From Alphaproteobacteria bacterium (GTDB taxonomy: Bacteria > Pseudomonadota > Alphaproteobacteria > Sphingomonadales > Kordiimonadaceae), in assembly GCA_006226495.1 (NCBI GenBank), contig SBGU01000027.1:1-58628 (forward strand): a DNA stretch of 58,628 nt. Reading direction: 5' to 3'. Below are positions 1,220-28,885 of the stretch, piece by piece. Both the position numbers and the translations under genes were made by a program. The notes below the pieces were generated by a model. The model saw nothing but the letters and a program-made list of their open reading frames with translations. It made no database searches and was not told the DNA's origin. Within the stretch, counting starts at the first letter, position 1; every line of letters begins with the position of its first letter.

Positions 1220-1322
1220 GGGTAGGTGCCTTCTTTGCGGAGACGGAATTCTTTTCCTTAAAAAATTAATAGACCACTGATAAGGTTATTCATCAATACT
1301 CAAGATTGCATAGAGGGCTAAA

Positions 1323-2158: not shown

Positions 2159-2169
2159 GTATTTTCTCC

Positions 2170-2200
2170 TTGCTCCTACAGCTACTGTAGCATGTAGGGT
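2170..2200 (+). promoter_or_regulatory. MerR-type metal-inducible promoter and operator
   Basis: A -35-like TTGCTC (2170-2175) and a -10-like TAGGGT (2195-2200) are separated by 19 bases, the stretched spacing typical of MerR-activated promoters. The spacer contains the perfect dyad CTACAG-CTA-CTGTAG (2176-2190), the expected regulator footprint. It faces the exporter gene at 2237. Confidence 0.75.
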
Positions 2201-2236
2201 CGTGGAAGAGAAATTAACAGCGATTCGAGGTAAGAA

Positions 2237-2899: not shown

Positions 2900-2942
2900 A
2901 AGCGATGAAGATTGAATCCAGATGAAGATGCAGACGTGATCG

Positions 2943-3257: not shown

Positions 3258-3347
3258 CGATGTTCCTGCGCGGCTTCTGGTTGAGGTTTCCTCTCTGAAA
3301 TCTCTACGGGCCCGCAAGCTTCAATCTTTTTTTGAGAGCGAATAAGC

Positions 3348-4589: not shown

Positions 4590-5758
4590 AATACTCGCTA
4601 AAATTTGCACTGCTGGCACTGGTTTCACCGCTGGCAATCGATACCGCCGTTGTTGGCATGCTGCCAGAGCAGTTTGCTGCATTCGCTTACGAGCAGGAAG
4701 AACATAGCGATGAGCATGCTGAAGAAGGCGAAGAGCACGGCGAAGAAGAAATCGTCAAAATGTCTGATCAGGCGTTGCGCGCGGCAGGTGTTGTAACCGC
4801 GCGCGTCGCACCGCGGACGTTGGCAGAGACGATTTCGGCTCCGGGGGAGGTTACCGTCAATCAATATGCCACGCTGCAGGTAACGCCGCGTATAGAGGCC
4901 CAGGTCGTGGCCCGTCACGCCCGCATGGGGGATTTGGTCACAAAAGGCCAGGCTTTGGTGACCCTGTCCAGCGTCGATATGGCTGAGGCTCAGGCCAATC
5001 TCATTCTGGCAGAACAGGAATGGCGCCGGGTTCAAAAGCTCGGGCGCGATGTGGTCTCCGAGCAACGCTTTCTGGAAGCGCAGGTGGCGGCACAGCAAGC
5101 AAGAGCAAAAGTGCTCGCCTACGGCATGACGGAAATGCAGGCGCGGAAACTGCTGGAAAGCGACGTAGCGGCTGCGACCGGCGAATATGATCTGCTGGCG
5201 AGCCAGGAAGGCACCGTTATCCGTGACGCCTTCGTCGTGGGCCAGTTCATTGAGCCCGGTGTCCTTCTGTTTGAAGTAAGCGATGAGAAGCGGATCTGGG
5301 TAGAAGCTCAACTATCGCCCGAAAAAGCTGCCCGGATTGAACAGGGCGCCCAGGCTTGGGTCACAAAGAATGGGATATCCATGACGGGGACCGTCGTTCA
5401 GGTTCACCACCGGGTGGATGAAGCAACACGAACACTCGCTGTCAGGATCGAGGTGAACAACCAGGAAGACAGCCTCCATCCGGGCCAGTTCACGGATGTA
5501 GCAATCCAGACCGGCGAAGCCGAACGGGTAATTGCTGTTCCGGATAGCGCGATCATGTTGCTTGGGGGGCAACAGGTAGTGTTCAAACGCGAAGGCGATG
5601 AACTTCGCCCCATGCCACTTGATCTAGGCGCCTCTAAAGGTGGCTGGACTGAAGTGAAAGTAGGCCTGTTTGGTGGAGACGAGATCGTCATTGAGAACGC
5701 CTTCCTGATCAAATCTCTCATCTTGAAGTCCAAGATGGGTGAAGGCCATGGGCACTAG
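4586..5758 (+). CDS. czcB: periplasmic adaptor of heavy-metal RND pump (CzcB-like)
   Basis: The chosen start (ATG 4586) overlaps the czcC stop by four bases; an earlier in-frame ATG at 4568 is inside czcC and less likely. The protein has 390 residues. It begins with a signal peptide, followed by a His/Glu-rich stretch (EQEEHSDEHAEEGEEHGEEE) typical of CzcB N-termini that collect metal. Lipoyl and barrel-sandwich strands follow (APGEVTVNQYATLQVTPRIE), then a helical hairpin around residues 130-190 and a C-terminal membrane-proximal beta region. It bridges the CzcA pump and the CzcC duct in the periplasm. Confidence 0.9.
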   Translation: MKYSLKFALLALVSPLAIDTAVVGMLPEQFAAFAYEQEEHSDEHAEEGEEHGEEEIVKMSDQALRAAGVVTARVAPRTLAETISAPGEVTVNQYATLQVTPRIEAQVVARHARMGDLVTKGQALVTLSSVDMAEAQANLILAEQEWRRVQKLGRDVVSEQRFLEAQVAAQQARAKVLAYGMTEMQARKLLESDVAAATGEYDLLASQEGTVIRDAFVVGQFIEPGVLLFEVSDEKRIWVEAQLSPEKAARIEQGAQAWVTKNGISMTGTVVQVHHRVDEATRTLAVRIEVNNQEDSLHPGQFTDVAIQTGEAERVIAVPDSAIMLLGGQQVVFKREGDELRPMPLDLGASKGGWTEVKVGLFGGDEIVIENAFLIKSLILKSKMGEGHGH

Positions 5759-5767
5759 GAGGCGCAA

Positions 5768-8700: not shown

Positions 8701-8896
8701 CCTTGGCCTTGTTCCCATGCTGCTTTCAAGCGGTGTCGGGGCGGAGACGCAGCGCCCTTTGGCGACCGTTGTGGTCGGTGGCCTGTTTACGTCCACTTTG
8801 CTGACGCTCGTGCTGTTGCCGGTTATTTATGACTGGATGGAAAGTCGGGACGGCAGAACAAAACCTCTCCCTTCAAATGACGAGGTGCAATCATGA
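5768..8896 (+). CDS. czcA: heavy-metal efflux RND transporter, CzcA family
   Basis: 1042 residues, the usual HME-RND length. It has twelve predicted TM helices in two halves separated by two large periplasmic loops. TM1 is followed by VPIDAFPDVTPVQV, the conserved HME-RND opening. The proton-relay region reads GIGMMVDGAVVMVEN (about residues 399-413). Typical C-terminal motifs are present (FGVAMLNGIVLVSF, LRPVLMTASVAILGLVP). It pumps divalent or monovalent metal ions out using proton motive force. It follows czcB by nine bases and overlaps the PII-like gene by four bases (ATGA). The relay motif is intermediate between Czc and Cus types, so the ion is uncertain. Confidence 0.93.
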   Translation: MLNKLVESALQYKFLVIIAFLVVGFMGWRAVNTVPIDAFPDVTPVQVNIYTESPGLAAEDVEQLLTFPVESGMAGLPGVQEIRSVSLFGLSYVAVYFEDDMDIYFVRRLVMERLAEVGDRIPEGYGTPEMGPNTSGLGQVFWYTVEQADEKLAGVDSEMDLRTLQDWTIRLILRTAPGVDDVMSWGGQERQYQVQIDPLKLIKYNLGYRDVMEVIETNNRQVGGQYIDQGPEQYLVRGLGLVRNEEDLGNIVVKQVDGTPVYLRDVAIISQAGALRFGAVTRDGKEVVLGMALSRIGENAKNVVDAVKEKVGIAEQALPDGVEIKPIYDRTELVEKAVATAENALVEGSILVAIVLFLFLGELRSALVVIAALPLAMLIAFIFMENAGLSANLMSLAGLAIGIGMMVDGAVVMVENSFRVMAERREAGESVNRTAAVLEAAREVANPISFAILIIIVVFLPLFSLEGLEGKLFKPMAFNISFAMAGSLLLTLTIIPVLAALILKPKEEKDTVLVAWIKKRYLPLLDWALGHRKAVVGGAVALLLGSLALFPLLGKEFMPQLQEGSIMWRVTSIPSTSLDQSIRISKDIEIALGKFPEVETTLAMIGRAEKGETADVNYMEIYTALKPHDEWTGDRTIAELAEDMREELEKVVPTSVIAFTQPIQMRVEELISGVRATLAVKLYGEDLSELDRLSAGIKEAVSSVPGVADLSLEANIGKPQVRIQVNRSALARYGMNADDILDIVRTGIGNEPVSTLIDGVKRFDITARLQDASKASVVAIKAIPVRTSSGAIISLSDVADVSVGEGYSFVRREQLQRYAVIQMDVRGRDVDGFVQDANKAIEAQVDLPPGYWVEWGGAFENQQRALARLSVIVPLTIFFIFVLLYTAFNSVRFATLIIANVPFATAGGLVGLFVTGQYVSVPSAIGFIAVFGVAMLNGIVLVSFINELRAKGMNVHDAVRRGTELRLRPVLMTASVAILGLVPMLLSSGVGAETQRPLATVVVGGLFTSTLLTLVLLPVIYDWMESRDGRTKPLPSNDEVQS

Positions 8897-12133: not shown

Positions 12134-12844
12134 TCAAAACAGGCTTGGCTGGTCATTCATGCCAAGCTCTACTGGCCGCACAGTTAGGTCATTTCCTGGG
12201 TAGGGTTTCAGCAGGCTGAGCGCGTGCTCGGGTGCCGTGTTTGTGCTGAGCCAATCTTCATATTCATAGGGCCGCAGGATGGCTGGCATTCTGTCATGTA
12301 TTGGCGCGGCAGCGCTGTTGGGTTCCGTGGTAATCATGGTGCAGGACAATATGCCATCGGGCCATTCAGGCGTTCGAATGTGTTTGTTCCACTCCCAAAG
12401 CCCTGCGACGGAAAACAGGCGAGCACCATTAATCGTGAAAAAGTAGGGTTGCCCGCCTTTGAATTCGTAGTAGCCGTTCATTGGAATCAAACACCGCCGG
12501 CCATCCAATAGCGGCGCCAAGTAGGCGGAGCGGATCATCTGCCTCAGGCGTGGTGTGGAAGCCTTCCATCGATAATAAATATCTATGAGCTTGTCAGACC
12601 GGGCATTGAACATGCTGAATTGAGAGTCCAATTCGCGTGCGTATCGAGGCACCAGCCACCAGCGCGCCATTGTGAGGCGCCGACAGTGGCTTCTGTGCGC
12701 CACTATTGGTACTGGGTCGGTGGGCTTCAAATCGCCAGTTTGCCAGGCCGCGTCCAATCGATCAGCCTCTGCAGTAAAAAGGTTGTAATACTCATAGAGC
12801 TCTCGCCAGGTCGGATATTCCTCCTTGTTCATTCGCCCGCACAT
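12134..12844 (-). CDS. SRAP-domain protein, YedK/HMCES-like abasic-site crosslinker
   Basis: The start is set at 12844 because SRAP proteins need Cys2 exposed after Met removal, and the frame here gives MCGRMNKEEY. Other family signatures are CLIPMNGYYEFK and HDRMPAIL, supplying the conserved Asn, Glu and His of the active site. Members form a thiazolidine bond with abasic sites in single-stranded DNA and so shield them during replication. The 236-residue length is normal. It sits alone between the XRE gene and an IS fragment; island and phage copies of this family are common. Confidence 0.88.
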   Translation of the reverse strand: MCGRMNKEEYPTWRELYEYYNLFTAEADRLDAAWQTGDLKPTDPVPIVAHRSHCRRLTMARWWLVPRYARELDSQFSMFNARSDKLIDIYYRWKASTPRLRQMIRSAYLAPLLDGRRCLIPMNGYYEFKGGQPYFFTINGARLFSVAGLWEWNKHIRTPEWPDGILSCTMITTEPNSAAAPIHDRMPAILRPYEYEDWLSTNTAPEHALSLLKPYPGNDLTVRPVELGMNDQPSLF

Positions 12845-12951
12845 TTCTCGTCTCCACGAATCTGATCGCAAATTGAGAACATATCATGAACAAATATGTT
12901 GGGGTTGGAGAAAAATTTGGAAGGTGACTAGCCAAGCGATCAATGGCAGAC

Positions 12952-13146: not shown

Positions 13147-14271
13147 TTATCTAGAAGCGTTAGCCAAGTCGCAGTCGACGTCTGGCTCCCAGACACATTT
13201 AGACGTATCGAGGTTATTTGCGGCATAAGCTGGACTAGCATTTAAAAGCCTGTCCCGAACGGATTCATGCACCAATGCGCCATCCGGAATAGCTCGCATG
13301 TGTTTTCCCATCAGGCGCCAGAAAGACTCGAATGATTCATGCGCTTTGCCGAGCTTGTTCGGGGCTACGTATACCCTCTTGCTGCCGGTTCTGGGCTCCC
13401 CCAGAACCAAACGCTTGTATCTACTTTTAGAAATTTTCAGACCAGCCTTTACCGCTTCACTGACCATCCATTTCAGTGGAATTTTTGCCAGTGCACTTTC
13501 ACTCTCAGGATATCCGCCACCGATATCGCTATGTACACCTGCGAACCAGACTTCCTTGACGTCTTGGGGTTCGGGACTAGGGTCGAAAGGGTTCGATTTG
13601 TAAAGTTTTTTATCGCCCCACAAATCAGCCTTAAACGTTTTACGCTTTTCATCGATAGCGACCGCATGACGGACTATTTTGACCGCGTCGTTGTTCACCG
13701 TGTAAGGGTACAGTTTGTTTGTAAGTCCAACAGAGAGAAGTTTACCGTTCGGTCGGAATACTGAGCTTACGGTGTCCCAAACACCAAGGAAGTGAATCCT
13801 GACCATGCGTGAGTTAGTGACTTCAGAAAAGCGCCAAACGCTTGAGAAGTCACCTGTATCTGAGACGTGCTTGTACCACTTCTGGGCATAAGGAAGCAGG
13901 TTTAACTGTGCAGGATGGAGCAGCCCTAAAGCTCGAATAAAACCCGCCAATACCCGTGCCGTATAAGCTCCCCGACTGAAGCCAAAGATGAAGATCTTGT
14001 CACCCTTCACATACTGCTCGGCCAGAAACCTGTATGCATCCAGAACATTTTCATCAATGCCATAGCCCGTAGCTCCCGTTGCTATTTCTCCAACTTTATC
14101 CCGGAGCTTGGTCCAAGTATTCGATTTACCGATGGTGCCGACGCCAGAGTCATAAAATACGACCTGTTCCTCGTCTCGCGTCGAGATCTGGTAAAGCTTC
14201 AATACGTTTGAGAGATCTTCTTCGATCTCGTTACCTGTTCCGTCACAGTAGACAATAATATTCTTCGGCAT
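13147..14271 (-). CDS. DUF2235 alpha/beta-hydrolase-like protein
   Basis: The ATG at 14271 follows GGTGGGG at good spacing. The 374-residue protein opens with NIIVYCDGTGNE, the hallmark start of DUF2235, and carries the nucleophile elbow FGFSRGAYTARVLAG (GxSxG). Later motifs are FLGVWDTVSS and EVWFAGVHSDIGGGY, which supply the Asp and His of the triad. The family includes T6SS phospholipase effectors (Tle1-like) and many uncharacterised hydrolases. No VgrG, PAAR or immunity gene is adjacent, so a T6SS role is not supported here. It is divergent from a secreted nuclease gene. Confidence 0.85.
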   Translation of the reverse strand: MPKNIIVYCDGTGNEIEEDLSNVLKLYQISTRDEEQVVFYDSGVGTIGKSNTWTKLRDKVGEIATGATGYGIDENVLDAYRFLAEQYVKGDKIFIFGFSRGAYTARVLAGFIRALGLLHPAQLNLLPYAQKWYKHVSDTGDFSSVWRFSEVTNSRMVRIHFLGVWDTVSSVFRPNGKLLSVGLTNKLYPYTVNNDAVKIVRHAVAIDEKRKTFKADLWGDKKLYKSNPFDPSPEPQDVKEVWFAGVHSDIGGGYPESESALAKIPLKWMVSEAVKAGLKISKSRYKRLVLGEPRTGSKRVYVAPNKLGKAHESFESFWRLMGKHMRAIPDGALVHESVRDRLLNASPAYAANNLDTSKCVWEPDVDCDLANASR

Positions 14272-14385
14272 TGCATTCCCCACCTAGCACACGCTTTTAA
14301 GGCAAAATGTACTCTTTTGGATTGATATTTTAAAGGTATAACGCTCTACTATAACGGCAAAATTTAGCTTGAGGGGATTGGTTAG

Positions 14386-15219
14386 ATGAAGATGAATGTG
14401 ACAGGTTTGGCCAAAATCTCTTTTTGGCTTTATTTCTGTCTGTCCCAGGCAAGCAATGCCCAGGATTGTCCAGAGTTGAATGCTGCCCAAAAAGAGATTT
14501 TGGCCAAACAACATCTTGGGCAGTTTCATCCTGAAGGCGAATTCATAGTTCATCGAGCCTATGCGTTGAACTTTAACACTCAAATGCTTGTTCCGAATTG
14601 GGTTGCATGGCGCATTGAACCAGCGTTTCGGGACACGCCTAAGAGAACAGGCAAATGGTCGGCATTCAGGCCTGATCCCGAGGTACCCGAAGAGTATAGA
14701 GTTGTAGCTGGTGACTATTCTAACGGTGGTTACCACCGTGGTCATATGGCTCCCTTCTTCATATCGGGAGGCGATAGGGATGGAGATGGGCAGGACGCAG
14801 AATTTGAAGATGAGCCAGACCTGCCTATTGAAGACATTGATGACGCCTGCACCGTCTTCGAGATCAATTATATGTCCAACATGAGCCCCCAACTCCCTCG
14901 TGTTAATAGCCAAGGAGGCGCATGGTACGATCTCGAGACCCAAACCCGTGGAGAGGTTGACCAAGGCGCCTCATACCAAGTGATTGCCGGGAACATTTTT
15001 CTAAGCGAGACACCCAAGCGTATCGGCAAGAATGAAAAGAAGATTGCCGTGCCGGACGCACTCTACAAAATTTTGGACGATGGTAGCCAAAGGAAGGCGT
15101 ACCTATTTTTCCAGGAGAGCATGTTTGGGTACACATTTGGCTGTCTGCCTGAAGCCGATTTAGCACAATGCGTAGTTACCTTGGATGAACTGAGGACATT
15201 GCCCGGGGTCAAATTCTAG
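14386..15219 (+). CDS. secreted DNA/RNA non-specific endonuclease (NUC1 type)
   Basis: 277 residues with an N-terminal signal peptide (ISFWLYFCLSQASNA) and the beta-beta-alpha-metal nuclease core. The active-site motif reads GGYHRGHMAPF, a variant of the usual DRGH with His in place of Asp, and the metal-binding Asn is in NYMSNMSPQ. Such enzymes cut single- and double-stranded nucleic acid outside the cytoplasm. An acidic insertion (about residues 127-150) is unusual. It probably digests incoming or environmental DNA in the periplasm, or kills neighbours; no immunity gene is evident. Confidence 0.85.
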   Translation: MKMNVTGLAKISFWLYFCLSQASNAQDCPELNAAQKEILAKQHLGQFHPEGEFIVHRAYALNFNTQMLVPNWVAWRIEPAFRDTPKRTGKWSAFRPDPEVPEEYRVVAGDYSNGGYHRGHMAPFFISGGDRDGDGQDAEFEDEPDLPIEDIDDACTVFEINYMSNMSPQLPRVNSQGGAWYDLETQTRGEVDQGASYQVIAGNIFLSETPKRIGKNEKKIAVPDALYKILDDGSQRKAYLFFQESMFGYTFGCLPEADLAQCVVTLDELRTLPGVKF

Positions 15220-15964: not shown

Positions 15965-16930
15965 CTACAGCCTCACCTCTTGAATGTTCGGAGTGCCACT
16001 GCTGGTACTTAATTGGACGTATTCAGATGCTATGGCAGTTCCGCCCTCCTCAAGTTCAATTAAATATCCTTCGGCAGGCAGCAGGACTGTCCAGCTTTCT
16101 CCTGGGTCGAATGTATGAACAACGGGGGTTGGCCCTGCCGATTGACCTGTTCTGTATCCAACGGCGAACTTTTTGCCTGCTCGGTTGTCGGAATTTTCTA
16201 CAATGATCTTAAGCGGAAACTTCTTTGATCCTTTTATTATCTCATCCTGAAGTTTCGACGCTTGATCGCGGACGTTGATCTTTTGTCGCACGATCTCCTC
16301 GATGAGGGCATCCATGTTCGCTTTTACATCTTCAGACCAACCGACCGTTTCCGCCTTCACCTCCCGCATGATGTCGACATAGTGTTTGGCTGCCAACGCA
16401 CGTAGGGCGTTAAAGGCACCTTTGGTGCATGGGATTGGGAGTTGCTGAATTTGGACGACAAGTTCAGCTTCGAGTTCCGCACGCAGAACACGCAGGGAAT
16501 ATTCAGCCGCGCGAAATCTGGCCATGCCTTTCGTAATCATAAATTGTTTGTCGATCATCGCAAAGAAACCGGCCGCCAGAAGAAGAGCGACAGAGAAGAA
16601 GGGAATTTCGGTCTTTTCAATGCCAAACCGCCAGAGGAACGGCAGCGCATGGCCATCCTGTAGGGAAGAATAGAAGGTTGCTACTTCAATCAACAGTGTG
16701 CCCGCGAGGGCGAGAAAGAGTGCGAGGATTCTGAGTGCGTAGCTATAGAATTTGAAGCCTAAAAAATGAAATCCGGCATGTTGCTCATACCAATGAATTT
16801 CGGCGTCCACTCTCGCTAGTGCGGCGCGTTTCAACTCTTGGATCGTTTTATCAAGGTTTGAATCGTTGTCCTGCCAGATCACTTTTTCGAACGCTTCGGC
16901 AGTTTGCTTCCGAGATATTTTGTCCGTCAT
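15965..16930 (-). CDS. SLATT-like two-TM membrane protein
   Basis: 321 residues. An amphipathic N-terminal helix (residues 28-50) precedes two TM helices at about 67-88 and 110-126, then a long helix (130-225) and a beta-rich C-terminal domain (about 233-321). N-terminal helix, paired TM helices and a long trailing helix is the SLATT architecture; SLATT proteins are predicted pore-forming effectors in conflict systems, often beside nucleotide-second-messenger synthases. None is seen here. Its ATG overlaps the stop of the upstream secreted nuclease gene (ATGA), which implies joint expression. The SLATT assignment is by architecture only. Confidence 0.6.
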   Translation of the reverse strand: MTDKISRKQTAEAFEKVIWQDNDSNLDKTIQELKRAALARVDAEIHWYEQHAGFHFLGFKFYSYALRILALFLALAGTLLIEVATFYSSLQDGHALPFLWRFGIEKTEIPFFSVALLLAAGFFAMIDKQFMITKGMARFRAAEYSLRVLRAELEAELVVQIQQLPIPCTKGAFNALRALAAKHYVDIMREVKAETVGWSEDVKANMDALIEEIVRQKINVRDQASKLQDEIIKGSKKFPLKIIVENSDNRAGKKFAVGYRTGQSAGPTPVVHTFDPGESWTVLLPAEGYLIELEEGGTAIASEYVQLSTSSGTPNIQEVRL

Positions 16931-17763
16931 TGGGCTGGCCCTTTAGGCAATATGAACGAGATAGGGCAGTGATCGGACAGCGTTGTATGTTCGCTGTATG
17001 GCTCAGTGTAGGTCAACTCGTGGAATGCCTCTTTGTTTACGATAGCGCCGAGGTCGGGCGACAGCACGATATGATCTATAAATTCACCAAACTGGCCACC
17101 GTAACATTTAGGCTTCTGGCCTGCGTTTACTCGTACCAACGAGTAGCTATTGATCATTCGCCACAGATCGTCGCCTTGTTTATCCATGCGCCGATTGAAA
17201 TCTCCGAGAAAAATAAAGGAATGTCCGAGCTGGAGCTGATCTTTAGCCCATGACTGTAACGGGGCGACTTGCTGCGCGAGCTTGATGCAGGAGCTGCTGG
17301 ACGGCTGATCCAGGTCATCGTCAAAACACCCGGATTTAAGATGGACGGCCATCATGGTGATGTCCCGTGCGCCGTCATGTACCAAAATAACCGTTCCGTA
17401 TCGCAGACCGCCGGAGACGTTGAGTGCTTCGTAGTCAGGTTGCCGCTCGTAAGCAACACCTTTGCGAATAGCAAAGCCGGTGCGTTGGGCATTTTCCCGA
17501 TGTGACATCTCAATGACGTAGTCTGACGGTGGGAATACCTTTGCCAGCGCTGTGGAGTTTTCAACCTCTTCAACTGCAATAATATCGGCGTTAAGCTGAT
17601 GTGCATAACCCTGTAGGCGCGTGTATTGGGCGGCTGTGCGGGGAGATTTGTCTGTCCCTACACCATCCCCCAACCAGTAGATGTTCCAGGTAGCAATCTT
17701 GAGGTCAGCGTATGCGGAACTCGTCAGAAAGAAGGAGAGTATGAGAACTGCTAGTGCGCGCAT
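16927..17763 (-). CDS. secreted endonuclease/exonuclease/phosphatase (EEP) family protein
   Basis: The start at 17763 gives a clean signal peptide (MRALAVLILSFFLTSSAYA). The mature part begins LKIATWNIYWLGDG and carries the family motifs: VEEVEN (metal-binding Glu), VHLKSGC (His), GDFNRRM (Asp and Asn) and SDHCPISF (Asp-His). It is a DNase I-like hydrolase probably acting in the periplasm; two Cys pairs could form disulfides. It is translationally coupled to the SLATT-like membrane protein. It could equally cleave nucleic acid or phosphate esters of lipids. Confidence 0.85.
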   Translation of the reverse strand: MRALAVLILSFFLTSSAYADLKIATWNIYWLGDGVGTDKSPRTAAQYTRLQGYAHQLNADIIAVEEVENSTALAKVFPPSDYVIEMSHRENAQRTGFAIRKGVAYERQPDYEALNVSGGLRYGTVILVHDGARDITMMAVHLKSGCFDDDLDQPSSSSCIKLAQQVAPLQSWAKDQLQLGHSFIFLGDFNRRMDKQGDDLWRMINSYSLVRVNAGQKPKCYGGQFGEFIDHIVLSPDLGAIVNKEAFHELTYTEPYSEHTTLSDHCPISFILPKGPAQ

Positions 17764-18194
17764 CGTCGGCTCCTTGATCGAAGGTTCGTCCAACTCGCAA
17801 CACTTGGGCGCAGTCTTGCCGGTTTTGTCGGAATGTCAATGTCGACGGAAGGCGGGATGAAATACCGCACATGAATCAAAAGGCTATGATGGTGAAACTC
17901 ACACACGGGGCTGTGGAATGATTGGGTTAAACACCAATAACAACCACGAGTCGTCGATAGACACGCATTAATATTGGTGAGGCTGTTGGGTGTAACTCTT
18001 TGAATGAGCGCTGCAAAGGTGAGGGCCTTTTGCGATGTCCTGCCTGTTGTCTATATTACGCGCTAAGCGGGGTGCTTCAATTAGGTTGAGAGTACTCTAC
18101 TACTGCGTCCTCGTTGTGTCAGTACACCATTCCCGTGTTCTTGATTTCAAGTCTCGAGTTCAACTGGATGGTTGAACCGGAAAGGATTAATCCG
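17764..18194. other. intergenic stretch with no gene seen
   Basis: About 430 bases between the EEP nuclease start and the next rightward gene. Neither strand carries a convincing frame. It must hold divergent promoters, but none could be picked with confidence. An earlier in-frame ATG at 18114 for the downstream gene lacks a ribosome-binding site. Confidence 0.4.
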
Positions 18195-19023: not shown

Positions 19024-20988
19024 TCATTCGGCATCAAGCCAGTCGAGTGGTACCAATGCGCGGTCGCGCCACTCCTCGGCCAAAATGACGTTGGGGAGGT
19101 CGCCCCACACATCCTCATCGGCGTGGTCGAGCACGATGACCTGCAACCGATCCCGTGCAGCCGCGACCTGCTCACCCAGAAGTGCGAAGACCTTCCGCAC
19201 CGCGACCACATCTTCATCGCGCCATGCTACAGGATCGGCGGTGCTATCCCCGGCAGCCCGCCGCGGGAAATAGACCTGACTGGGTTGGTCGTAAATCAGG
19301 AGACCCGGGACAGGATGATGCGGAAGATCGAGGAAGAAGATCTGGAGGGCGAGCGTTAGTGCAACATGGTAAGCTAGCCAATTGGCGCCACTGCCGATTT
19401 CCCAAAGGTAGTCGTCGCGCGTGCCCCGGATAACCTTGACCGTGAGATCGGAGATCATGAGCCGTATCGGCGCATCTGGCCACTCGGCATCCAGGCGAGG
19501 TATCAGGCGGCCCGTCGTCGCCTCGATGCTGTCGACCGCGTTGTGGAGCTTTCGCCCGATTTCGCTCACGGAGACCTTTCGCTGTAGCTCGGTGATCTGC
19601 GCCTTGAGTGCGTCAATTTCCTGCCGCAGGCCGGCGGATTGGTCGGTGCGGTCGTATAGCTCGAGCGCCTGTTCCAGACGGCCAAGGAAGCGCTCCATAC
19701 GATCAAACCGATCGATCGCCTGCTTGGCTGCCTTCGAATCCCGCTCGAGCATCCCGATTTCGCGACGGATCTCGTTGAGGCGGACGAGCTGCGTTTCTGC
19801 CGCCGCACGGAGACGAAGCACTTCGCGGTCTAGCGTGTCGGATACACTGGGATGGGTCCGAAGCCGAACCTCGATCGATGCGAGTGCATCCCTTAGCTGA
19901 TCGATCTTCTGCTTGCCGCCGTCCGATATGAACGCGACCGGCTCACTCGATTCAGCGTCCGTGGAAAGCTTTTGTAGCCAGTCGGACAGCGCGAGGCGGT
20001 CGCGCTGAATACGGAGCGAGCTGCCGTAGATGTCGCTGCTTTCCAGCAGGCGGCGCAGTTCACTAAGACGCTGACGATGCCGCGTCAGCTCGGCGGCGAC
20101 CGCGGTTTCTTCGGCTCGAAGCGCTTGGAGCCTGTCGAGCGCGGCGTCGACACCGGCAAGTGTGGGATGCGCCGCATCTCCGTTGGCTTCAACGACCCTG
20201 CGGAGCAGATCGACGACCTCCGGCCAGTCGGTCGGAATGATCTGGTCGACCGGCAGTAATCCGAACTCGATCGCCTGCCGGAGCCAGGATTGTGCTTCCA
20301 TCCGCCATGCATTGGCGGCGGTCGCCAGAGCCTTTAGATCGTTCTCCCGCCGGCGCAGAATGCGCGACAGCCGGTCCAACTCATACCGGGCCTGCAGGAT
20401 GTCCGCCGTCACCGCCTGTAGGATGTAGGGGAAGATTGTCTTGAGCTTCTCGCGGTGCTCGGTCGTATCAGCCTTGAAAAACATGACGTCGGGGTTGGCA
20501 ACGATGTTCTGCGGCTGAAAGGTGAAGGCCATGAGGTCGCGGAAGCTCGGGCGCGATTTGAAGTTCGAATCCGCCTCCGGTTCGAAATCGAGGTTTGTCA
20601 GACCTGCGAGCCGGTTAAGCATCGTTTTGACAACCTCGGTGGTTGTCCCCTTAGCCTCGATGCGCGCCGGGATTTCGACCTCGGGCCCCTCGATCATCAC
20701 CATGTCACTGGTGCTTTGCTTGTCCCCGGGTTCGCGCCGCGCCAGCAACTTCTGCCCCTCGACCGTGTCGATCAACACGCCGAACCAGCGACAATTCTCT
20801 CGAATGACACCGACCGGAATGGCGCATTTATCGGATGCCAGGCAGTAATCGATAATGGGGATCACGGCGGACTTGCCAGTCTTCGACGCGCCGCTGATGA
20901 CGTTCACGACACCTGGTTGGAACTCGACAATGCGCGGCTCGCCGTCGTGCCGGGGCCAGAGGATGAGTTTGCGTAGTTGAAAATACAT
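19024..20988 (-). CDS. ABC-3C system ATPase (DUF3732 family)
   Basis: 654 residues with an SMC/RecN-like ABC ATPase plan. Walker A is GASKTGKSA near residues 33-41 (within VVNVISGASKTGKSAVIPII), a long coiled-coil arm fills about 185-470, and the C-terminal half has the signature and Walker B region (LLIYDQPSQVYFPRR) and IVLDHADED. DUF3732 ATPases are the motor of the ABC three-component conflict systems defined by comparative genomics. It starts at the stop of the middle-component gene (TAATG), and the effector gene is upstream, giving the canonical three-gene order. It probably senses invading DNA structures and licenses the effector nuclease. Confidence 0.88.
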   Translation of the reverse strand: MYFQLRKLILWPRHDGEPRIVEFQPGVVNVISGASKTGKSAVIPIIDYCLASDKCAIPVGVIRENCRWFGVLIDTVEGQKLLARREPGDKQSTSDMVMIEGPEVEIPARIEAKGTTTEVVKTMLNRLAGLTNLDFEPEADSNFKSRPSFRDLMAFTFQPQNIVANPDVMFFKADTTEHREKLKTIFPYILQAVTADILQARYELDRLSRILRRRENDLKALATAANAWRMEAQSWLRQAIEFGLLPVDQIIPTDWPEVVDLLRRVVEANGDAAHPTLAGVDAALDRLQALRAEETAVAAELTRHRQRLSELRRLLESSDIYGSSLRIQRDRLALSDWLQKLSTDAESSEPVAFISDGGKQKIDQLRDALASIEVRLRTHPSVSDTLDREVLRLRAAAETQLVRLNEIRREIGMLERDSKAAKQAIDRFDRMERFLGRLEQALELYDRTDQSAGLRQEIDALKAQITELQRKVSVSEIGRKLHNAVDSIEATTGRLIPRLDAEWPDAPIRLMISDLTVKVIRGTRDDYLWEIGSGANWLAYHVALTLALQIFFLDLPHHPVPGLLIYDQPSQVYFPRRAAGDSTADPVAWRDEDVVAVRKVFALLGEQVAAARDRLQVIVLDHADEDVWGDLPNVILAEEWRDRALVPLDWLDAE

Positions 20989-21497
20989 TAGAAATCCACC
21001 CTCAACGTGGAGGCCACCTGCGCCAAGCTGAGCTTGGAGAACCAGTAGCCGAGCTTACCCGCCGCCGCCGCGAAGCCCTTCAGTCGTTCGGGTAATCTCG
21101 GTTTGGCGGCATTGAGAAGATCGAGCGAATATCCGCGGAGTTGGGCGGTGTCGTAATCGACCCGAACGAGCTTCGATGTCGCGGCCACGCCGATCGACTG
21201 AAGGCTGAGCGGCCGCAATTGGGCCGCGCGCCCATGAATGCCCATCAGGATTTCCCGCTCCTTGTCGAACTTCGCCGCGAACAGCGGTAGGCCTGACGCC
21301 TTTCGCGTTGATGCCACTTCATCGAACGTCTGCCGGTGCAGAAGCACCGGCAACACCAGGAACGCCAATGGGATCGGCGCTGCTTCGGACCCTTCTTCCT
21401 GATAGCCCAGCGTGAACTGCCAGATCAAATAGGCGCCGATCGCGGGGTTCTGCACGATATCGAGTTCGGTGAGCCCCAAGGTGGACAAGGCCGTCAT
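20988..21497 (-). CDS. ABC-3C system middle component
   Basis: A 169-residue helical protein located between the effector and the ATPase, overlapping the first by ATGA and touching the second by TAATG. It carries the recognisable middle-component features: an early NPAIGAYLIWQFTLGY, then PIPLAFLVLPVLLHRQTFDE and a late LGYWFSKLSLAQVASTLRV. Middle components are thought to bridge ATPase and effector, perhaps by contacting nucleic acid. It has no catalytic motif of its own. Confidence 0.82.
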   Translation of the reverse strand: MTALSTLGLTELDIVQNPAIGAYLIWQFTLGYQEEGSEAAPIPLAFLVLPVLLHRQTFDEVASTRKASGLPLFAAKFDKEREILMGIHGRAAQLRPLSLQSIGVAATSKLVRVDYDTAQLRGYSLDLLNAAKPRLPERLKGFAAAAGKLGYWFSKLSLAQVASTLRVDF

Positions 21498-22663
21498 TCG
21501 CCATCACCTTCCAGCAGCGTCAGATAATCTCCGTGCCAGCCAAGGCGGCGGCGATCAGCTAGGTCGTTGAAGCTTCCGTGAACGAAATGACTGGGAACTG
21601 CCCGACCTTCGAGAGGGGCGACATGCTGGGCACACTGACGGTAGATCAGCCGGCCTTGGATCGCCGCCGACTTCTCGCCGTGCAGATCGGCGACGTCGCC
21701 TTTAGCCATGCCGTGCTTCTTGATGAGATCCTCGTCCCAACCGTCCAGGCTGCCGGAAAATATCTCGCCACGCTCGGCCCAATCGGCCTTGTCTGCCGAG
21801 GCGCGAAGATAGTCGCTGACGGCGCGAAGCCGGTCCTCTTCGGTCGCCTCGATGAGTTCGAGCTGCCGCACGAACACCGGCCGGGCCGCGGCGATGCCAG
21901 CGATCAGCGTTTCATCGGGCGACTCGCTGAGCGACGCCAGTAGACCAGGCAAGTTGTTTTGGCGTATGAAGGCATGGAAATCACGGCGGAAGGCCTCCAC
22001 ATCGAGGATAGGCTTTTCGCCCCGCCGGATCAGTCGATCCATTGCCTGTTTCGCTTGGCCAATACCTGAGCAAACGATGATGTCGATGTGGGCTTCTGCA
22101 ATCGACGGCCGGAGACGATCCCTGATGCTTTCCAGTGGATCATCCGCATCCGCCTCTAGCTCGAAATTCCCGAAGAGACTATGGCGCTGGTCCTCGGGCG
22201 CATCGAGCAACGCCAACACCTTGGCCGCGCTAGCTGGCGAAGTCTTCTTCTTATCGAGCTTCGCCTTGATGACGGCGAGCGCGGCATCGACCTCTTCGTT
22301 GGACGCGGCCGCGGCGAGCGCCTCTGCGAAGGCGCCTTTCTTCGCGGGCGTTACGTACAGCCGAAAAGTGGTGGATGCCGGCTGGCACTGTCCGGCTTCA
22401 AGCATGACCCGCCAGTTTTCGAAGGCCTTCCAAAGGTCTTCGTCCCAGTCCGAAATAGGATTTTGCTTTAGGGCGCTCTTCGTCTGCTCAAGACAAACAC
22501 TGCCATCGGCGTAATGGACTGAGACATCGTCTTGCAGCTCAAGAGCAACCTTGGCACCTTTAGGCGCGGTGAGAAGGTGATAGAACGCTCGAACGGGCTG
22601 AAGCGCAAAGCCGAGATATGGCCCCGGAGCGCTATGCTTCGTTGGTTTTATTTCGGCGTTCAA
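21494..22663 (-). CDS. ABC-3C system effector with nuclease-like N-terminus
   Basis: 389 residues from a TTG start at 22663, which sits behind a G-rich ribosome-binding site; no ATG fits. The N-terminal region (GPYLGFALQPVRAFYHLL, LELQDDVSVHY, CLEQTKSAL) resembles the restriction-endonuclease-like domain of DUF4297/Cap4-type effectors, with Glu42, Asp45/46 and Glu59-Gln-Thr-Lys62 as the likely catalytic set. The C-terminal part should be the conserved ABC-3C docking domain. It is first in the three-gene operon and probably cleaves DNA once the ATPase is activated. Nuclease activity is inferred from motif placement only. Confidence 0.75.
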   Translation of the reverse strand: MNAEIKPTKHSAPGPYLGFALQPVRAFYHLLTAPKGAKVALELQDDVSVHYADGSVCLEQTKSALKQNPISDWDEDLWKAFENWRVMLEAGQCQPASTTFRLYVTPAKKGAFAEALAAAASNEEVDAALAVIKAKLDKKKTSPASAAKVLALLDAPEDQRHSLFGNFELEADADDPLESIRDRLRPSIAEAHIDIIVCSGIGQAKQAMDRLIRRGEKPILDVEAFRRDFHAFIRQNNLPGLLASLSESPDETLIAGIAAARPVFVRQLELIEATEEDRLRAVSDYLRASADKADWAERGEIFSGSLDGWDEDLIKKHGMAKGDVADLHGEKSAAIQGRLIYRQCAQHVAPLEGRAVPSHFVHGSFNDLADRRRLGWHGDYLTLLEGDGE

Positions 22664-23447: not shown

Positions 23448-24248
23448 ATGGTTGGATGCGATAGAACTAGCAAAGACCCACTGCTTCGTATTTTACTGGA
23501 TGACTACGGCGTGCATTTGTTGAATCGGCCTCATCAGGATATTCGGCCTGGTCAACTATTGATGTGGCAAACCGAAAACTTACATTATTTCGCGAAGTTC
23601 GAGGATGTCTTCGGAAGCAATTCCAATATTCCTTTCAAATACACGGATCGAGAATTCTATAAGACCCTAGCAAGCATATATTCGTCAGATGTTTCCACGG
23701 GAATCTCTGGGAAAATGACTACCTTGTTAGCCGCAATGTGCGGGATTCTACCCGCTAGGGTTAGTGCTGCGCTGAAGAGAGCTTCAGCCAAGGATATTCG
23801 AATTGCGCTGAGTGGCCCAAGATGGTTGTACCTTGACATCGCGCCAACTCACATGGCGATCAACGCCCAGAACAACCTAAGTCCTAACGACGCATACGCT
23901 GGCTGGAAAATATACCTGGTGACCTCAGTTTATCTTTCTAGAGGTGTCAGATTCTTGTTTGACAAGAACATCGCAGCTGAAGTGGCCGCGCAGTTGCAAT
24001 GCGAGGCAGAATCCGCCGAAGTAAATCTTGAATTAGAATCAGTTGCAAACCGTGAACTAAAGTGGAGCTTGCCGTCAGATGAAGCGGCAATTTTCGGCGT
24101 TAGTTTTGTTGAACTGTGTAAGGAGGAGGGCAAATGGGTGCTCCATGGAGTTGACCATGTAATGAGAGTACGTGGCAGTTCCGCAAAACTGGACCACGCC
24201 TTTGTCGGGGATGCTGATACCGGTTCCCTCTTTTTAAATCTTAGTTAG
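23448..24248 (+). CDS. bacterial gasdermin-like pore-forming protein
   Basis: The ATG at 23448 follows GAGAGG at seven bases and yields 266 residues, the usual bacterial gasdermin (bGSDM) size. It starts MVGCDRTSKDPLLRILLDDY: the Cys at position 4 matches the N-terminal Cys that is palmitoylated in bGSDMs, and D-P-L..L...YG..L...P..DIRP resembles their first strand region. Further bGSDM-like features are KIYLVTSVYLSRGVRFLF (154-171) and LKWSLPSDEAAIFGVSF (204-220). A short polar tail after about residue 240 would be the autoinhibitory peptide released by proteolysis. A CHAT protease is encoded two genes downstream, as in known gasdermin loci. Cleaved gasdermin would open large membrane pores and kill the infected cell. 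The assignment is by pattern and context, not by search. Confidence 0.72.
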   Translation: MVGCDRTSKDPLLRILLDDYGVHLLNRPHQDIRPGQLLMWQTENLHYFAKFEDVFGSNSNIPFKYTDREFYKTLASIYSSDVSTGISGKMTTLLAAMCGILPARVSAALKRASAKDIRIALSGPRWLYLDIAPTHMAINAQNNLSPNDAYAGWKIYLVTSVYLSRGVRFLFDKNIAAEVAAQLQCEAESAEVNLELESVANRELKWSLPSDEAAIFGVSFVELCKEEGKWVLHGVDHVMRVRGSSAKLDHAFVGDADTGSLFLNLS

Positions 24249-24331
24249 GTCAGCAACACAATCTATTGTGATTGATATGTAAATATTCTACTATATATGC
24301 GATTGGCGGCTGTGTAAAAAAGGGGGGATTC

Positions 24332-25609
24332 GTGGGGACTCAGCTATCACTGCCGATTTATTCTGCAGTCGATACTTATCCTACATCTACATCCAAACTT
24401 TGGCTGTTTTCGCCTGGCGACGAAGATCTGGAGTCCGTGTTCAGGCTGGTATCAAAGTGTAATTCAAATTTTGAATATTCTTTTATTGACGCACTGTCCG
24501 GGGGCGAGGCTGTTGCGCCTACAGATTTCGTTCTCATAAAGTGCTCAAATAGCCCGCTGAAGTTCTCTCTGCTTGCCCCCCAGTCTTTTATGGCTTCAAG
24601 CAACAAGGAACTTATGGTGAAAAAGTTCCTTGAACTTGTGTCCAGGCCGAATGCGCTAAGGCCGCTAACAAGGCGCGCCAAAGATATATTGATGCTGTCA
24701 TTTACGCCAGGTGCACGAAGATCAAGCAGCGCCAGCAACTTTATTTCAGACATAGAGTATCTTCTGCACTTGCTGAGAAGAGTCGATGTTTTTAATGATC
24801 CAGCAGCTACAAGGGCGATTTTCGAGGACGTAATCGGAAGTGTAGGGGCCTATGCAAGTCCCGTCCTCGTTGCATTGTTAAGGCGTTGCTGGGCAGAAAG
24901 TCTGGCATGTTCGACGTCGCAATATCCGCCCATTTATGATCAACAGCATGATATATTACGTGAACTAGATGCCGCAATCATGGAGTTCTGTGCTGCGGGC
25001 CACAGACGTGCCAGTGAAAAAACATTCCGGCACAAATTATTATACTCAAAATATATGTCTGAAAGTCGGCAGCTACAGTTTTCATTTCCTAATGCTCCAG
25101 TTTCCGACGAAGCGCGCCCGTCACTTTACTCAAGTTTTAATTTCAAACGGTTGTACGGCGTTTCCCAACAATTTTCGGCTCCTACCGTGCCGCAATGGGG
25201 CGAAGTTAGCCAAGTATCCTTTGAAAAGGCCTATGTTGAAACAATTGAGCTGAGGCAATCGCAGCTTATTTCAATGGTGGCAGGCATAAAGTCATCAAAC
25301 CTTGAGCTGCAAGGCCAAGTGACTTCTCGATCGGAGAATCAACGAGCCATCCAGTTGAGTACAGTTTTAGATCAAAGGCTTCCTGTGCTTCTAGGGCTAG
25401 GCGGTAAAATTGGTCAACAAGATGGCGAAATATTGATACGCCCCTATGCATCTCACATTAGTTCATACCCAGAGTATCAAGTCGTAAAGATCGGACAAGA
25501 AGCGCGTTTTGAAGTTCGATTGGACGACCCAATGCCACAACTATTGCGAATAGAAGCGATATCTGGGAGTGGAATTAAGCGCAATATTTCTGTAAGAATA
25601 GCTGATTGA
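24332..25609 (+). CDS. unknown 425-residue partner in gasdermin operon
   Basis: A GTG at 24332 lies six bases after AAGGGGGG, far better than an upstream TTG with no ribosome-binding site. The protein has a mixed N-terminal half, a helical middle (about residues 110-225, including FISDIEYLLHLLRRVDVF and VLVALLRRCWAESL) and a beta-rich C-terminus (about 360-425, ending QLLRIEAISGSGIKRNISVR). There is no TM helix, signal peptide or catalytic motif. It lies between the gasdermin and the CHAT protease genes with short gaps on both sides. By position it may be a sensor, scaffold or protease regulator. No family recognised. Confidence 0.6.
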   Translation: MGTQLSLPIYSAVDTYPTSTSKLWLFSPGDEDLESVFRLVSKCNSNFEYSFIDALSGGEAVAPTDFVLIKCSNSPLKFSLLAPQSFMASSNKELMVKKFLELVSRPNALRPLTRRAKDILMLSFTPGARRSSSASNFISDIEYLLHLLRRVDVFNDPAATRAIFEDVIGSVGAYASPVLVALLRRCWAESLACSTSQYPPIYDQQHDILRELDAAIMEFCAAGHRRASEKTFRHKLLYSKYMSESRQLQFSFPNAPVSDEARPSLYSSFNFKRLYGVSQQFSAPTVPQWGEVSQVSFEKAYVETIELRQSQLISMVAGIKSSNLELQGQVTSRSENQRAIQLSTVLDQRLPVLLGLGGKIGQQDGEILIRPYASHISSYPEYQVVKIGQEARFEVRLDDPMPQLLRIEAISGSGIKRNISVRIAD

Positions 25610-25645
25610 GGAGCCGGGTATTGATCTCGGGGTTTGGGGAAATCT

Positions 25646-26767
25646 ATGTTAGCGCTCAAAATCGACAAGGATTTAAGGGCTCATTTCTCATATAATGGGC
25701 AATTAGAAGCTATTCCATTTAACCCAAAATCGGCTCCAGATGAGCTAATTGAAGAGAAACTCAGGTACTCGCTAGCCATAGACCGTGGGGACAGACCCTC
25801 CGCGGAAACCTTGGCATCGGTCGGTTGGAATTACTTTACCTCACTGCTTCCCAATAATCGTGACCGCAAGAGATTTAGAGAGTTCTTGAGCGCAATGAAG
25901 GGGCCGGCCTTCATGGTTGGTGGGTACGGGTTAAGAATACCTTGGGACCTGATTTATTTAGAGGATCCTAACGAAACCCCCTTCCAAGTTCGTAATTTTC
26001 TTGGCTGGAGCAACGTGAGTTGTATGCCTCACGAGGCCACTGAAATTAACCTTCTCGGCCGTTTGCGGAGTTCTCGCGCCGATGTTGGGTTAGTAGAATC
26101 CAACTTGCCCGGCAACTGTGTCTTATCAAAGACAGCGGGAGTCGACCAAACGCAGGCGCAACCGTGTGAGGGATGTACGACTATGTGCGAAGCGTCTGCC
26201 TTACTTACTCTCGCCAGAAACGGGATCATGCGGCAAGCCGCACTTAACAACGGGGCTGGCAGCAGCCGGACAGCAGAGCTGCAGAAAATTATTGACTGGC
26301 GCTTTTTGAAGGACAGCAGGATATTGCATTTAAGTGTCCAGCACGAATCAACGAGCACCGCCAAAGCCAGGACATTCTACAGGCTGAAAATTTGCAACGA
26401 TTTCGAGCTAACTAGGGACGAAGTGCTTAAGTCCTATCACACGTTGCGTCCTGGAACCGTTGTCTTTCTTAATTGCTGCGACGGAGCCTTTGATCGTGTC
26501 GGTGACCAATACTCGTCATTAGCTGCAGACTTCCCGAGTGCGGCGTGCGTGGTTACGTCTACCACTGAGATTGGTTCTCCCTCTGCAATAGCCATGGCAA
26601 AAAGCTTTTACGAGAGTTTCAAGTCCGAGACCGTCGTTGCCTCAGTTCTTCGAGCTAGACAGTCATTATGGGAAAAAAATAAGGACTTAACAGGATTTTT
26701 CTACCGCGTACATGGTCAACACCAAATGCGTTATCTTGATCCTATTGATCAAGCTTTCGCTAATTGA
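25646..26767 (+). CDS. CHAT-domain caspase-like protease
   Basis: The ATG at 25646 follows GGGGA; an earlier TTG is less likely. In the 373-residue product an upstream motif [12 protein letters not shown] (about 95-106) is typical of CHAT proteins. The catalytic His is in [10 protein letters not shown] (His233), replacing the common HxxCHG form, and the catalytic Cys is in [10 protein letters not shown] (Cys277 or Cys278). The last part ([24 protein letters not shown]) fits the end of the fold. An extra CEGCTTMC cluster (Cys174, 177, 181) lies in the loop before the His and could bind metal or a cofactor. In known loci such proteases cut gasdermin. It is followed within 15 bases by the S10-fusion gene. 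Confidence 0.8.
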
Positions 26768-26781
26768 ATTGGAGTATGGTG

Positions 26782-27984
26782 ATGATCTCCGTTCAAGGCT
26801 CCCAATCGTTAAGTCAAAGTGCCTCTTTGCAAGCCCCTTCGGCTGCTCCTGACGTGTCAAAAATCCGCATTAGGCTAAAAGCGTTCGACTATCACGTCCT
26901 CGATTCTGCGGCACAAGATATATGCTCTACGGCGAGACGAACAGGTGCGCTGGTAAAGGGGCCGATACCTCTTCCAACAAGGATTGAAAAATTTACCGTT
27001 CTTCGCGGTCCACACATCGACAAGCGTTCGCGAGAGCAGTTTGAGATGCGTACCCATAAGAGATTGCTGGACATTGTGGACCCGACACCAGCGACAGTTG
27101 ATGCCTTAATGAAGCTCGATCTAAATGCCGGGGTCGATGTTGAGATCAAACTCGGCGAAAATAAAAAAAATAAAAATACCTCCAACGCTAATACAATCAA
27201 CCGCGGTAAAGCGGCAACTATGCTCTCTGATTTTTCTGCATTATTGCAGGAGCCAAGCCGCACGAATTCAGAGGAAGTTGAATGTCTGAAAAATATTAGC
27301 GCTGCGCTCCTAAATCTAAGTGGAAACTGGCAAGAAATTTCCGCAAAATCCGATTTAAGAGATTCGTTCACTCAAGTACTAGCAAGCTGCTATCAGCATG
27401 TTTTGACCCGAAGAGGCCATTCCGCAAAAATGGCTGCCTACATTATTATTTGGCTGCTCGATGACTCTTTTAGGGGTAACAAGGATCTCTTGAAGAACCT
27501 TTCAAATGAGGTGGACCCCGAAGATAGTAGAGTGCTGGGCCGAATGAATGACCTATTGCTTGCCAATGGAGATCTAAAATACACCAGCGTTTCAGGTGTT
27601 GTAGTCAAAACGCTAAATGGATCGCAGTTGGACATACGTTTTTCTGCTTCAGTGCCGGGCGCAGCAAAACATAACTGCGTCGGATATTTTCCTCCTAACT
27701 TCTCCTTACCAGAAAAAGTGTATGGAAAATCGCCATGTCTCAGTTTGGAGGTTTATGCCCCTATTGACGACACAATTCAGCTTCTAGAGTTTCATTCGGA
27801 AAGCGTGATTTGCGACGCACACTTTGTGTGCGAGGCAAACGCGGATAAGTATATCTCTATTACGTTTATCGTAAATAATATTCCGTTTGGTGAGCAACGT
27901 CTATCGATTGCCTCACTTTTGGCTAGGCTCGACATGTTAGATGCTTTCCCTGAAACCAGTTCGACGTTGAGCACAGAAGTATAA
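26782..27984 (+). CDS. ribosomal protein S10 (NusE) domain fused to unknown C-terminal region
   Basis: The ATG at 26782 is seven bases after GGAG and gives 400 residues. Residues about 27-125 are an essentially complete S10: [64 protein letters not shown] and [20 protein letters not shown]. By hand roughly two thirds of positions match E. coli S10 from memory, and the loop wording (IEKFTV, HIDKx[18 protein letters not shown]) is of alphaproteobacterial type. A Lys/Asn-rich linker (about 126-145) leads to a helical region (about 150-240) and a beta-rich end (about 250-385). The usual S10 operon partners (rplC, rplD, rpsS) are absent. It sits last in the gasdermin-CHAT operon, so it is probably a molecular bait or sensor rather than a housekeeping ribosomal protein. 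Confidence 0.88.
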
Positions 27985-28039: not shown

Positions 28040-28166
28040 GCTTTGTGGATATGTGGACTGTCCGCTTCGCAGATCCCTTCGCTAAAGTTATTCATAACTA
28101 TGGGGAAAACACTGGTTTACCCCATAGTTATAAACAACCGCTCAGCAGACCACATGCCCACAAAGC
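28040..28166. repeat. nested inverted repeats near the island's right end
   Basis: The outer arms are 21 bases each: 28040-28060 (begins GCTTTGTGGATATGTGG) and the inverse at 28146-28166 (ends GCCCACAAAGC), agreeing at 18 of 21 positions. The inner arms are a perfect 12-base pair, ATAACTATGGGG (28094-28105) and CCCCATAGTTAT (28120-28131). The block lies between the operon stop and the comM junction. It could be a recombinase or transposase end-binding region or a strong terminator. Confidence 0.65.
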
Positions 28167-28254
28167 GCCACCACAGCCCCTTTTCAATAAATATATTTTT
28201 TTAAGAAGGGGGGAGCGAGTTGACAACTATATGCTCATACTGGCTAAAGCGTAA

Positions 28255-28885
28255 AATGCCCGAATATTCCAGGGCTGCGCTCGAAGCGCTGCGCCAGCCG
28301 CTCGAAAGCGGCAAGGCCGTGGTGGCCCGCGCGGCAGCCCATGTAAGCTACCCGGCACGGTTCCAGCTCATCGCTGCCATGAACCCCTGCAAATGTGGTT
28401 ATCTGTCCGACGAAGCCCTGGCCTGCGGGCGCGCGCCGCGCTGTGCGCTCGATTACCAGTCCCGCATTTCGGGGCCGCTGTTTGACCGGATCGATTTGCA
28501 TGTGGATGTGCCGGCGGTTGCGGCCAGCGACCTTGCCCTGCCGCCACCGCGCGAAGGTTCGGCCGCCGTGCGCGCCCGGGTCGCCAAAGCGCGTGATCTG
28601 CAGGCAGAGCGCTACCGCGCCCATGCCGCCGCCGGCATTTTTGTCAATGCCCATGCCGATGGCGAACTTCTGGAGAAAGTGGCCGCGCTTGATGATGCGG
28701 GCCGGGCCTTGCTGATGCGCGCCACCGACGCCATGCGCCTGTCTGCTCGGGGTTATCACCGTGTGCTCAGGGTCGCACGCACCCTGGCCGATCTCGCCGG
28801 CGCGGAAAGGCTTGCCAGCAACCATGTGGCCGAAGCCCTGTCCTACCGCCGCATGGCCCCGCAGGCCTTCAGCCGCACGGGCTGA
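28255..28885 (+). pseudogene. comM: 3' fragment of comM (Mg-chelatase-like AAA+ ATPase)
   Basis: From MPEYSRAALEALRQPLESG on, the frame matches the C-terminal 40 percent of ComM/YifB, including ARFQLIAAMNPCKCGYL, the arginine-finger region GPLFDRIDLHVDVP, and the C-terminal LSARGYHRVLRVARTLADL. The preceding residues expected in an intact gene (LFLDE, Walker B) are replaced by unrelated AT-rich sequence, so the first part of comM has been separated by the island. Intact ComM is a helicase that helps branch migration during natural transformation; this copy cannot work alone. A new start at the ATG is possible, but no good ribosome-binding site is seen. Confidence 0.9.

Follow-up and report, generated by a model that had tools for sequence, protein, structure and literature searches.

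A bacterial gasdermin operon with a CHAT-type protease and a ribosomal protein S10 fusion, and its counterpart in Bradyrhizobium tropiciagri

Introduction

According to the available text of the published accounts, bacterial gasdermins are released by a caspase-like protease whose gene adjoins that of the gasdermin, as in Runella and other bacteria (PMC9079055). Multi-gene operons joining a gasdermin and a protease are also described for the CARD-NLR systems of Lysobacter (PMC13236601). In the fungus Podospora, a two-gene cluster couples a gasdermin to a neighbouring CHAT protease that activates it (PMC12881547), and in the Craspase of type III-E CRISPR a sensor complex switches the TPR-CHAT protease on (PMC10952713, PMC9729208). 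A gasdermin with a caspase-like protease is thus an already known kind of system. The way in which infection is sensed by such systems in bacteria is, to our knowledge, largely open. The operon considered here lies in a 58,628-nucleotide stretch of DNA from an alphaproteobacterium of the Kordiimonadaceae (GCA_006226495.1, contig SBGU01000027.1), referred to as the window. Sequence comparison indicates that it shares with a locus of Bradyrhizobium tropiciagri a gasdermin, a protein of no described family, a CHAT protease and a ribosomal-protein fusion, and that the two bacteria differ in the ribosomal protein that is fused.

The four-gene operon

The operon comprises four intact genes, P1 to P4, all on the + strand and, in a frame check of the window, free of internal stops. 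The layout proposed in the initial annotation was exact, with intergenic gaps of 83 (P1-P2), 36 (P2-P3) and 14 bases (P3-P4).

The first protein (P1, 266 residues, 23448..24248) had been called gasdermin-like, and profile searches assign it to the bacterial gasdermins. It matches the PADLOC bGSDM profile (69.8 bits, E 6e-20), its residues 3-255 align to PDB entry 7n50 (E 9.2e-9), and a two-row profile of P1 and 7n50 also finds 8sl0 (E 6e-4) and 7n51 (E 1e-3). The NCBIfam prok_gasdermin profile matches at E 1.8e-11 with 44.2 bits, below its 100-bit cut-off. Cys4 of P1 (23457-23459) aligns with Cys3 of the Bradyrhizobium bGSDM 7n50, the palmitoylated residue of that protein (PMC10989679), and the N-terminal Cys of P1 would accordingly occupy the palmitoylation site. 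At the other end, 11 residues follow the last one aligned to 7n50, with Phe252 aligned to Phe247; P1 appears to bear a short, putatively inhibitory C-terminal tail and no large helical domain.

The second protein (P2, 425 residues, 24332..25609, GTG start) was described as unknown and remains without a family: no match at E <= 1 was obtained in Pfam, PADLOC, NCBIfam or PHROGs, and no hit in the PDB. It is nevertheless a conserved partner, as the Bradyrhizobium locus indicates. The third (P3, 373 residues, 25646..26767) is called a divergent CHAT-type protease because its Bradyrhizobium homologue P7 passes the Pfam CHAT cut-off of 24 bits (PF12770, 49.9 bits, E 4.1e-13) and P3 and P7 are related, both in the LNCC motif and across the domain at large. 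The catalytic Cys of P3 falls in the conserved strand-end motif, as Cys277-Cys278 within LNCC, the same LNCC being present in P7. A P3 profile gave two PDB hits (best E 0.28), neither trustworthy. Residues 174-181 of P3 form a Cys-rich stretch, CEGCTTMC, without a counterpart in the part of P7 aligned to it; it is perhaps a metal site.

The ribosomal-protein fusion

The fourth protein (P4, 400 residues, 26782..27984, an open frame with a start) is the proposed sensor or regulator. As had been noted from the sequence, it is led by a whole S10 domain: residues 29-123 (26866..27150) form a complete uS10 domain (Pfam 3.6e-35, NCBIfam PRK00596 3.6e-45) that exceeds the Pfam and TIGR cut-offs. The remainder, residues 126-400 (27157..27984), has no detected relative; these approximately 275 residues match nothing in Pfam or NCBIfam and give one weak hit in PHROGs (E 0.17). 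For a uS10 the protein is atypical, being a 400-residue fusion in a putative defence operon and not a single-domain protein among ribosomal genes. The genome's own rpsJ is present on a different contig, and the S10 of P4 is an additional copy.

The S10 of the fusion and that of the host share 86 of 98 residues, including 58 of the 60 in columns 36-95. Third codon positions differ at 64 of 98; nonsynonymous divergence (dN) is 0.105, synonymous divergence (dS) being saturated and not computable. Among 57 S10s compared (from 57 of 58 loci, L058 being left out), the closest to the fusion (86/98) are the host's and its identical counterpart in a congener, the next reaching 85. A 58-row tree places the fusion with these two (support 98/88), a grouping to be read with the few columns, the unsettled bootstrap, the long branch and the unusual letter composition of the fusion in mind. 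An extra S10 is rare: S10 was found in 213 of 240 genomes of the class, two matches occurring only in the own genome and in one other (G273), and the longest S10-bearing frame among the matches listed has 210 residues. Among 29 relatives, 24 yielded S10, with two matches in the own genome and in one further genome (G096; both 108-residue frames).

The Bradyrhizobium locus

Two outcomes had been named beforehand as refuting the initial proposal: no structural match of P1 to gasdermins, and no co-occurrence of the four genes in other genomes. Neither came about, since P1 matches gasdermins in sequence and a related four-part set was found in Bradyrhizobium tropiciagri. When a genome collection was scanned with the gasdermin profile (the contig scan using two patterns), one relative was recovered, the bGSDM of this species, whose structure is PDB 7n50 (NZ_LFLZ01000095.1, L069). 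Beside it stand P6, a homologue of P2, the CHAT protein P7 and an L13 fusion, P8, in the same order as P2-P3-P4. P8 has 460 residues and opens with an entire ribosomal protein L13. Its C-terminus gave three PDB hits (best E 0.12), none trustworthy. At 6443-8812 (+) the same locus encodes a 789-residue protein that PADLOC scores as 'trypsin-like' (3.3e-257) and that weakly matches S1/P1 nuclease (E 0.059).

The fused L13 and the host L13 are identical at 125 of 150 residues, with dN 0.10 and dS 0.88. In a whole-genome search the fused domain had 79% identity to its own host and 55-67% to nine other genomes; the row-level comparison took in four of these nine other loci, the nine identities coming from the whole-genome search. 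In each case the ribosomal domain thus appears most similar, of the proteins compared, to that of its own host, and it is conserved in protein sequence. Because of these identities, the low dN and the third-position or dS divergence, the fused S10 and L13 look old, constrained and host-matched. Since the ribosomal protein is exchangeable (L13 in Bradyrhizobium, S10 here), the set is not defined by S10 as such.

Distribution

Beyond these loci, single-protein scans of viral contigs gave no accepted relative, one candidate (L010) being rejected as a phage structural-gene region by eye, and two-row profiles found none in the same contigs. With tblastn, plasmids gave zero matches for P1, P2, P3 and a joined Bradyrhizobium query. 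For P4 there were matches in 64 plasmid records, which never covered more than 80% of the query; the 30 matches listed all lay in the S10 part, as did those in 13 phage records. The P4 C-terminus was found in 1 of 196 genomes of the order, the bGSDM family in 1 of 385 of the class, the P2 profile, with or without a gasdermin, in 1 of 357 of the class, and the joined query in 1 of 19 of the genus, in each case the own genome.

In the phylum, the joined query was found in at least 2 of 398 genomes, the own one and L008; the latter match (E 0.008) was judged spurious, lying in a mannose-6-phosphate-isomerase-like gene by eye. The joined Bradyrhizobium query was found in at least 3 of 341 genomes of the Bradyrhizobium family: the own one, L082 and L083. 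Both counts are lower bounds because at most two candidates per genome were scored and the own gasdermin was unlisted. The L083 match was rejected because it runs antisense to what looks by eye like an M16-peptidase gene, and L082 was rejected as a relative, its CHAT-region match lying in an unrelated-looking gene. At 1029-3435 (-), L082 carries a 639-residue CHAT-region frame and, after it, a 156-residue frame in which a hydrophobic stretch is seen by eye; it is possibly another CHAT-type conflict system.

Proposed mechanism and alternatives

The operon is read here as a four-part cell-death module of the abortive-infection type, in which P4 is a host-matched ribosomal sensor. That the gasdermin and the CHAT protein form a death module is likely, and P4 is probably, if less firmly, its sensor or regulator. 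The four-part reading as a whole falls a little short of an even chance, and the suggestion that the ribosomal domain reports the state of the ribosome, of ribosomal proteins (r-proteins) or of antitermination is more tentative still. The abortive-infection interpretation of the initial annotation is partly supported.

In the proposed sequence of events, the gasdermin P1 would be held off by its short C-terminal tail, which the CHAT protease P3 would remove, a cleavage proposed by likeness to the caspase-like/gasdermin and the fungal CHAT/gasdermin cases. P2, conserved as a partner of P3, would probably act as its adaptor or inhibitor. The role of sensor would fall to P4, its ribosomal domain mimicking the host protein and passing for the host copy. 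Because this domain copies the host protein closely, P4 could be held by host ribosomes, by rRNA or, S10 being NusE, by Nus antitermination complexes. An infection would then disturb the partner of P4, for instance where rRNA synthesis is stopped or antitermination hijacked; freed or altered P4 would switch on P3, P1 would be cut, and its pores would kill the cell.

The fusions P4 and P8 are the components that vary most from one locus to the other, but each has a ribosomal protein like that of its host; this points to them as the parts that face the cell or the invader. Taken together, the two loci suggest a defence by cell suicide that monitors components of the host ribosome, and a sensor held by ribosomal or antitermination partners and freed by viral takeover would fit both the S10 and the L13 case. 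L13 is said to have been assigned to the rRNA antitermination complex by Torres et al. in 2001. In its available text, PMC6614801 cites Torres et al. 2001 for 'other r-proteins, in particular S4'. NusB and NusG are described as partners of uS10, which phage lambda N exploits, and uL13 represses its own operon when it outnumbers 23S rRNA (PMC10931766, in part). A wider inflammasome-like class, in which exchangeable host-matched ribosomal sensors read the r-protein/RNA balance or the antitermination complex and viral shut-off leads through CHAT to pores, is speculative and on balance unlikely; if true, it would parallel in bacteria the alarm that animal cells raise under ribosomal stress.

Several findings weigh against this reading. 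Only two loci with the full four-part set were found. P2 and P6 are not significantly similar by BLASTP (E 0.24), and single-sequence hhalign gave probabilities of 0.85% for P2/P6 and 19.6% for P3/P7. On its own, P3 stays under the Pfam CHAT cut-off (15 vs 24 bits, E 0.017). The initial annotation had placed both catalytic residues of the protease: the Cys stands, while which His is catalytic in P3, H228 or H233, is uncertain, H228 being aligned with H248 of P7, the second His shifted by one residue and the His-His spacing one residue longer than in P7 (H248, H252). A relationship between the C-termini of P4 and P8 was rejected (alignment Z -0.6 to 0.4, against a null pool of 87 of 95 proteins, eight that shared an 8-mer with a tested protein being dropped), and because these C-termini are without relation a common mode of action for the two fusions is not established. 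The P2-CHAT-L13 cassette of Bradyrhizobium and the gasdermin gene are arranged convergently, and a trypsin-like protease gene lies upstream of the gasdermin on the strand of the latter. Finally, the changes in the fused S10 are clustered, 10 of 12 falling in columns 10-35 (hypergeometric 1.7e-5 for a region picked post hoc), a clustering that is weaker against 55 other S10s (Fisher p 0.038).

The main rival, though an unlikely one, is an integrated decoy: the ribosomal domain would bait a phage protein directed at S10 or L13, whether to attack or to hijack it, and binding or modification of the bait would trigger P3. Some plant immune receptors bear copies of pathogen targets. Host-matched, conserved ribosomal domains suit a bait, as do the exchangeable ribosomal proteins with unrelated C-termini and the recruitment of uS10 by phage lambda N through NusB/NusG (PMC10931766, in part). 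No phage protein targeting both S10 and L13 turned up, however, no search having been aimed at one, and a bait would not require a near-whole ribosomal protein. More doubtful is the idea of two neighbouring systems, the P2-CHAT-fusion cassette being a unit of its own that merely stands beside gasdermins. The convergent cassette and the trypsin-like gene beside the gasdermin in Bradyrhizobium would be expected from it; the single strand and short gaps in the window would not, the sole gasdermin relative from the collection has the cassette alongside, and the P2 profile found no further copy, with a gasdermin or without, in 357 class genomes.

It is about as improbable, or slightly more so, that P4 is a second CHAT substrate, cleavage of which would free a C-terminal fragment or block ribosomes via the ribosomal domain. 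Type III-E TPR-CHAT cleaves Csx30 (PMC10952713, in part), and the fusion follows CHAT at both loci, but the gasdermin already serves as a separate effector and no cleavage site is known. A death module serving ribosome-supply stress or domesticated elements such as gene transfer agents, rather than phage defence, has a precedent in the CARD-NLR-like system governing gene transfer agent release in Caulobacter (PMC13236601, in part). It is quite improbable here, as the operon adjoins a Lamassu system in a low-G+C stretch, which suits defence. Least credible is an accidental duplication or fusion of S10 without function in the operon. S10 is generally conserved, so that similarity alone says little, and a single S10 case is known; the reading is disfavoured by a protein kept despite saturated third positions, by a second ribosomal fusion at the same operon place in another genus, and by the 210-residue maximum for S10 frames noted above.

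Genomic context

The operon lies within a low-G+C stretch: the 2-kb windows between 22001 and 29000 have a G+C content of 0.46-0.53, compared with 0.59-0.66 to their right. Divergent from it, and outside the four-gene module, PADLOC places a Lamassu-type system on the - strand (19024..22663), with LmuB at 19024-20988 (3.2e-127), LmuC at 20988-21497 (1.2e-8) and LmuA at 21494-22663 (2.6e-41). Pfam names these proteins as the ABC-3C parts MC3 and CTD7. A defence role fits because this system adjoins the operon.

On the right-hand border of this stretch, 28220-28885 (+) carries the C-terminal half only (Pfam) of a Mg-chelatase-like gene, presumably ComM/YifB. A search of the rest of the genome assembly (96.8% complete) did not recover its N-terminal ChlI domain. 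Two other ChlI matches were set aside, one RadA-like by eye and one in an 813-residue frame that we take to be Lon. Between the operon and this truncated gene lie nested inverted repeats (28040-28210): an inner one (28087-28138) with 24-nucleotide arms, 88% complementary, and a 4-nucleotide loop, and an outer one (28040-28060 / 28146-28166) with 21-nucleotide arms, 86% complementary. They are perhaps an element end or a terminator. No Rfam RNA leader matched in the window at gathering scores, and neither promoter-like sites (9 found vs 7.6 expected) nor terminator-like sites (5 vs 6.1) were enriched.

Further genes of the window include a cation efflux protein (PF01545) followed by frames that resemble, by eye, a heavy-metal CzcCBA-type efflux set (2237-8896, +), an SOS response associated peptidase (SRAP) gene (12134-12871, -; PF02586, 2.6e-43), a type VI secretion system Tle1-like phospholipase domain (13147-14283, -; PF09994, 5e-82), a DNA/RNA non-specific endonuclease (14386-15219, +; PF01223, 9e-28) and an endonuclease/exonuclease/phosphatase family protein (16927-17793, -; PF03372, 6e-12).

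Comparison with known systems

The literature compared, each source through part of its text, comprised PMC10989679, PMC13236601, PMC12881547, PMC10952713, PMC10907252, PMC9079055 and PMC12799240. No ribosomal-protein fusion in a gasdermin system was found among the open-literature records listed, though Johnson 2022 or Wein 2025 may mention one. If the fused S10 and L13 are sensors, the trigger becomes testable at once through ribosome state, free r-proteins, Nus antitermination or a phage binder, and the fusion would be a bacterial immune receptor made from a host housekeeping protein.

The gasdermin and caspase-like protease systems share the adjoining protease, but the available text on them mentions no ribosomal-protein component (PMC9079055). 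Unlike the CARD-NLR systems, P2-P4 show neither an NLR-like ATPase (E <= 1) nor a trypsin-like protease domain (Pfam). The Podospora protease has its own TPR part (PMC12881547, in part), whereas here sensing would fall to other genes. Craspase TPR-CHAT has no gasdermin in the accounts available (PMC10952713, PMC9729208), and the present operon has no CRISPR parts. Closest is the Bradyrhizobium tropiciagri locus, which has the bGSDM, the P2 homologue, the CHAT protein and a ribosomal-protein fusion, with the P2-CHAT-fusion order, and is unlike the present operon in its L13 in place of S10, the unrelated C-terminus of its fusion, its convergent cassette and its upstream trypsin-like gene. The comparison gives a new reading of the neighbourhood of a gasdermin with a solved structure (7n50).

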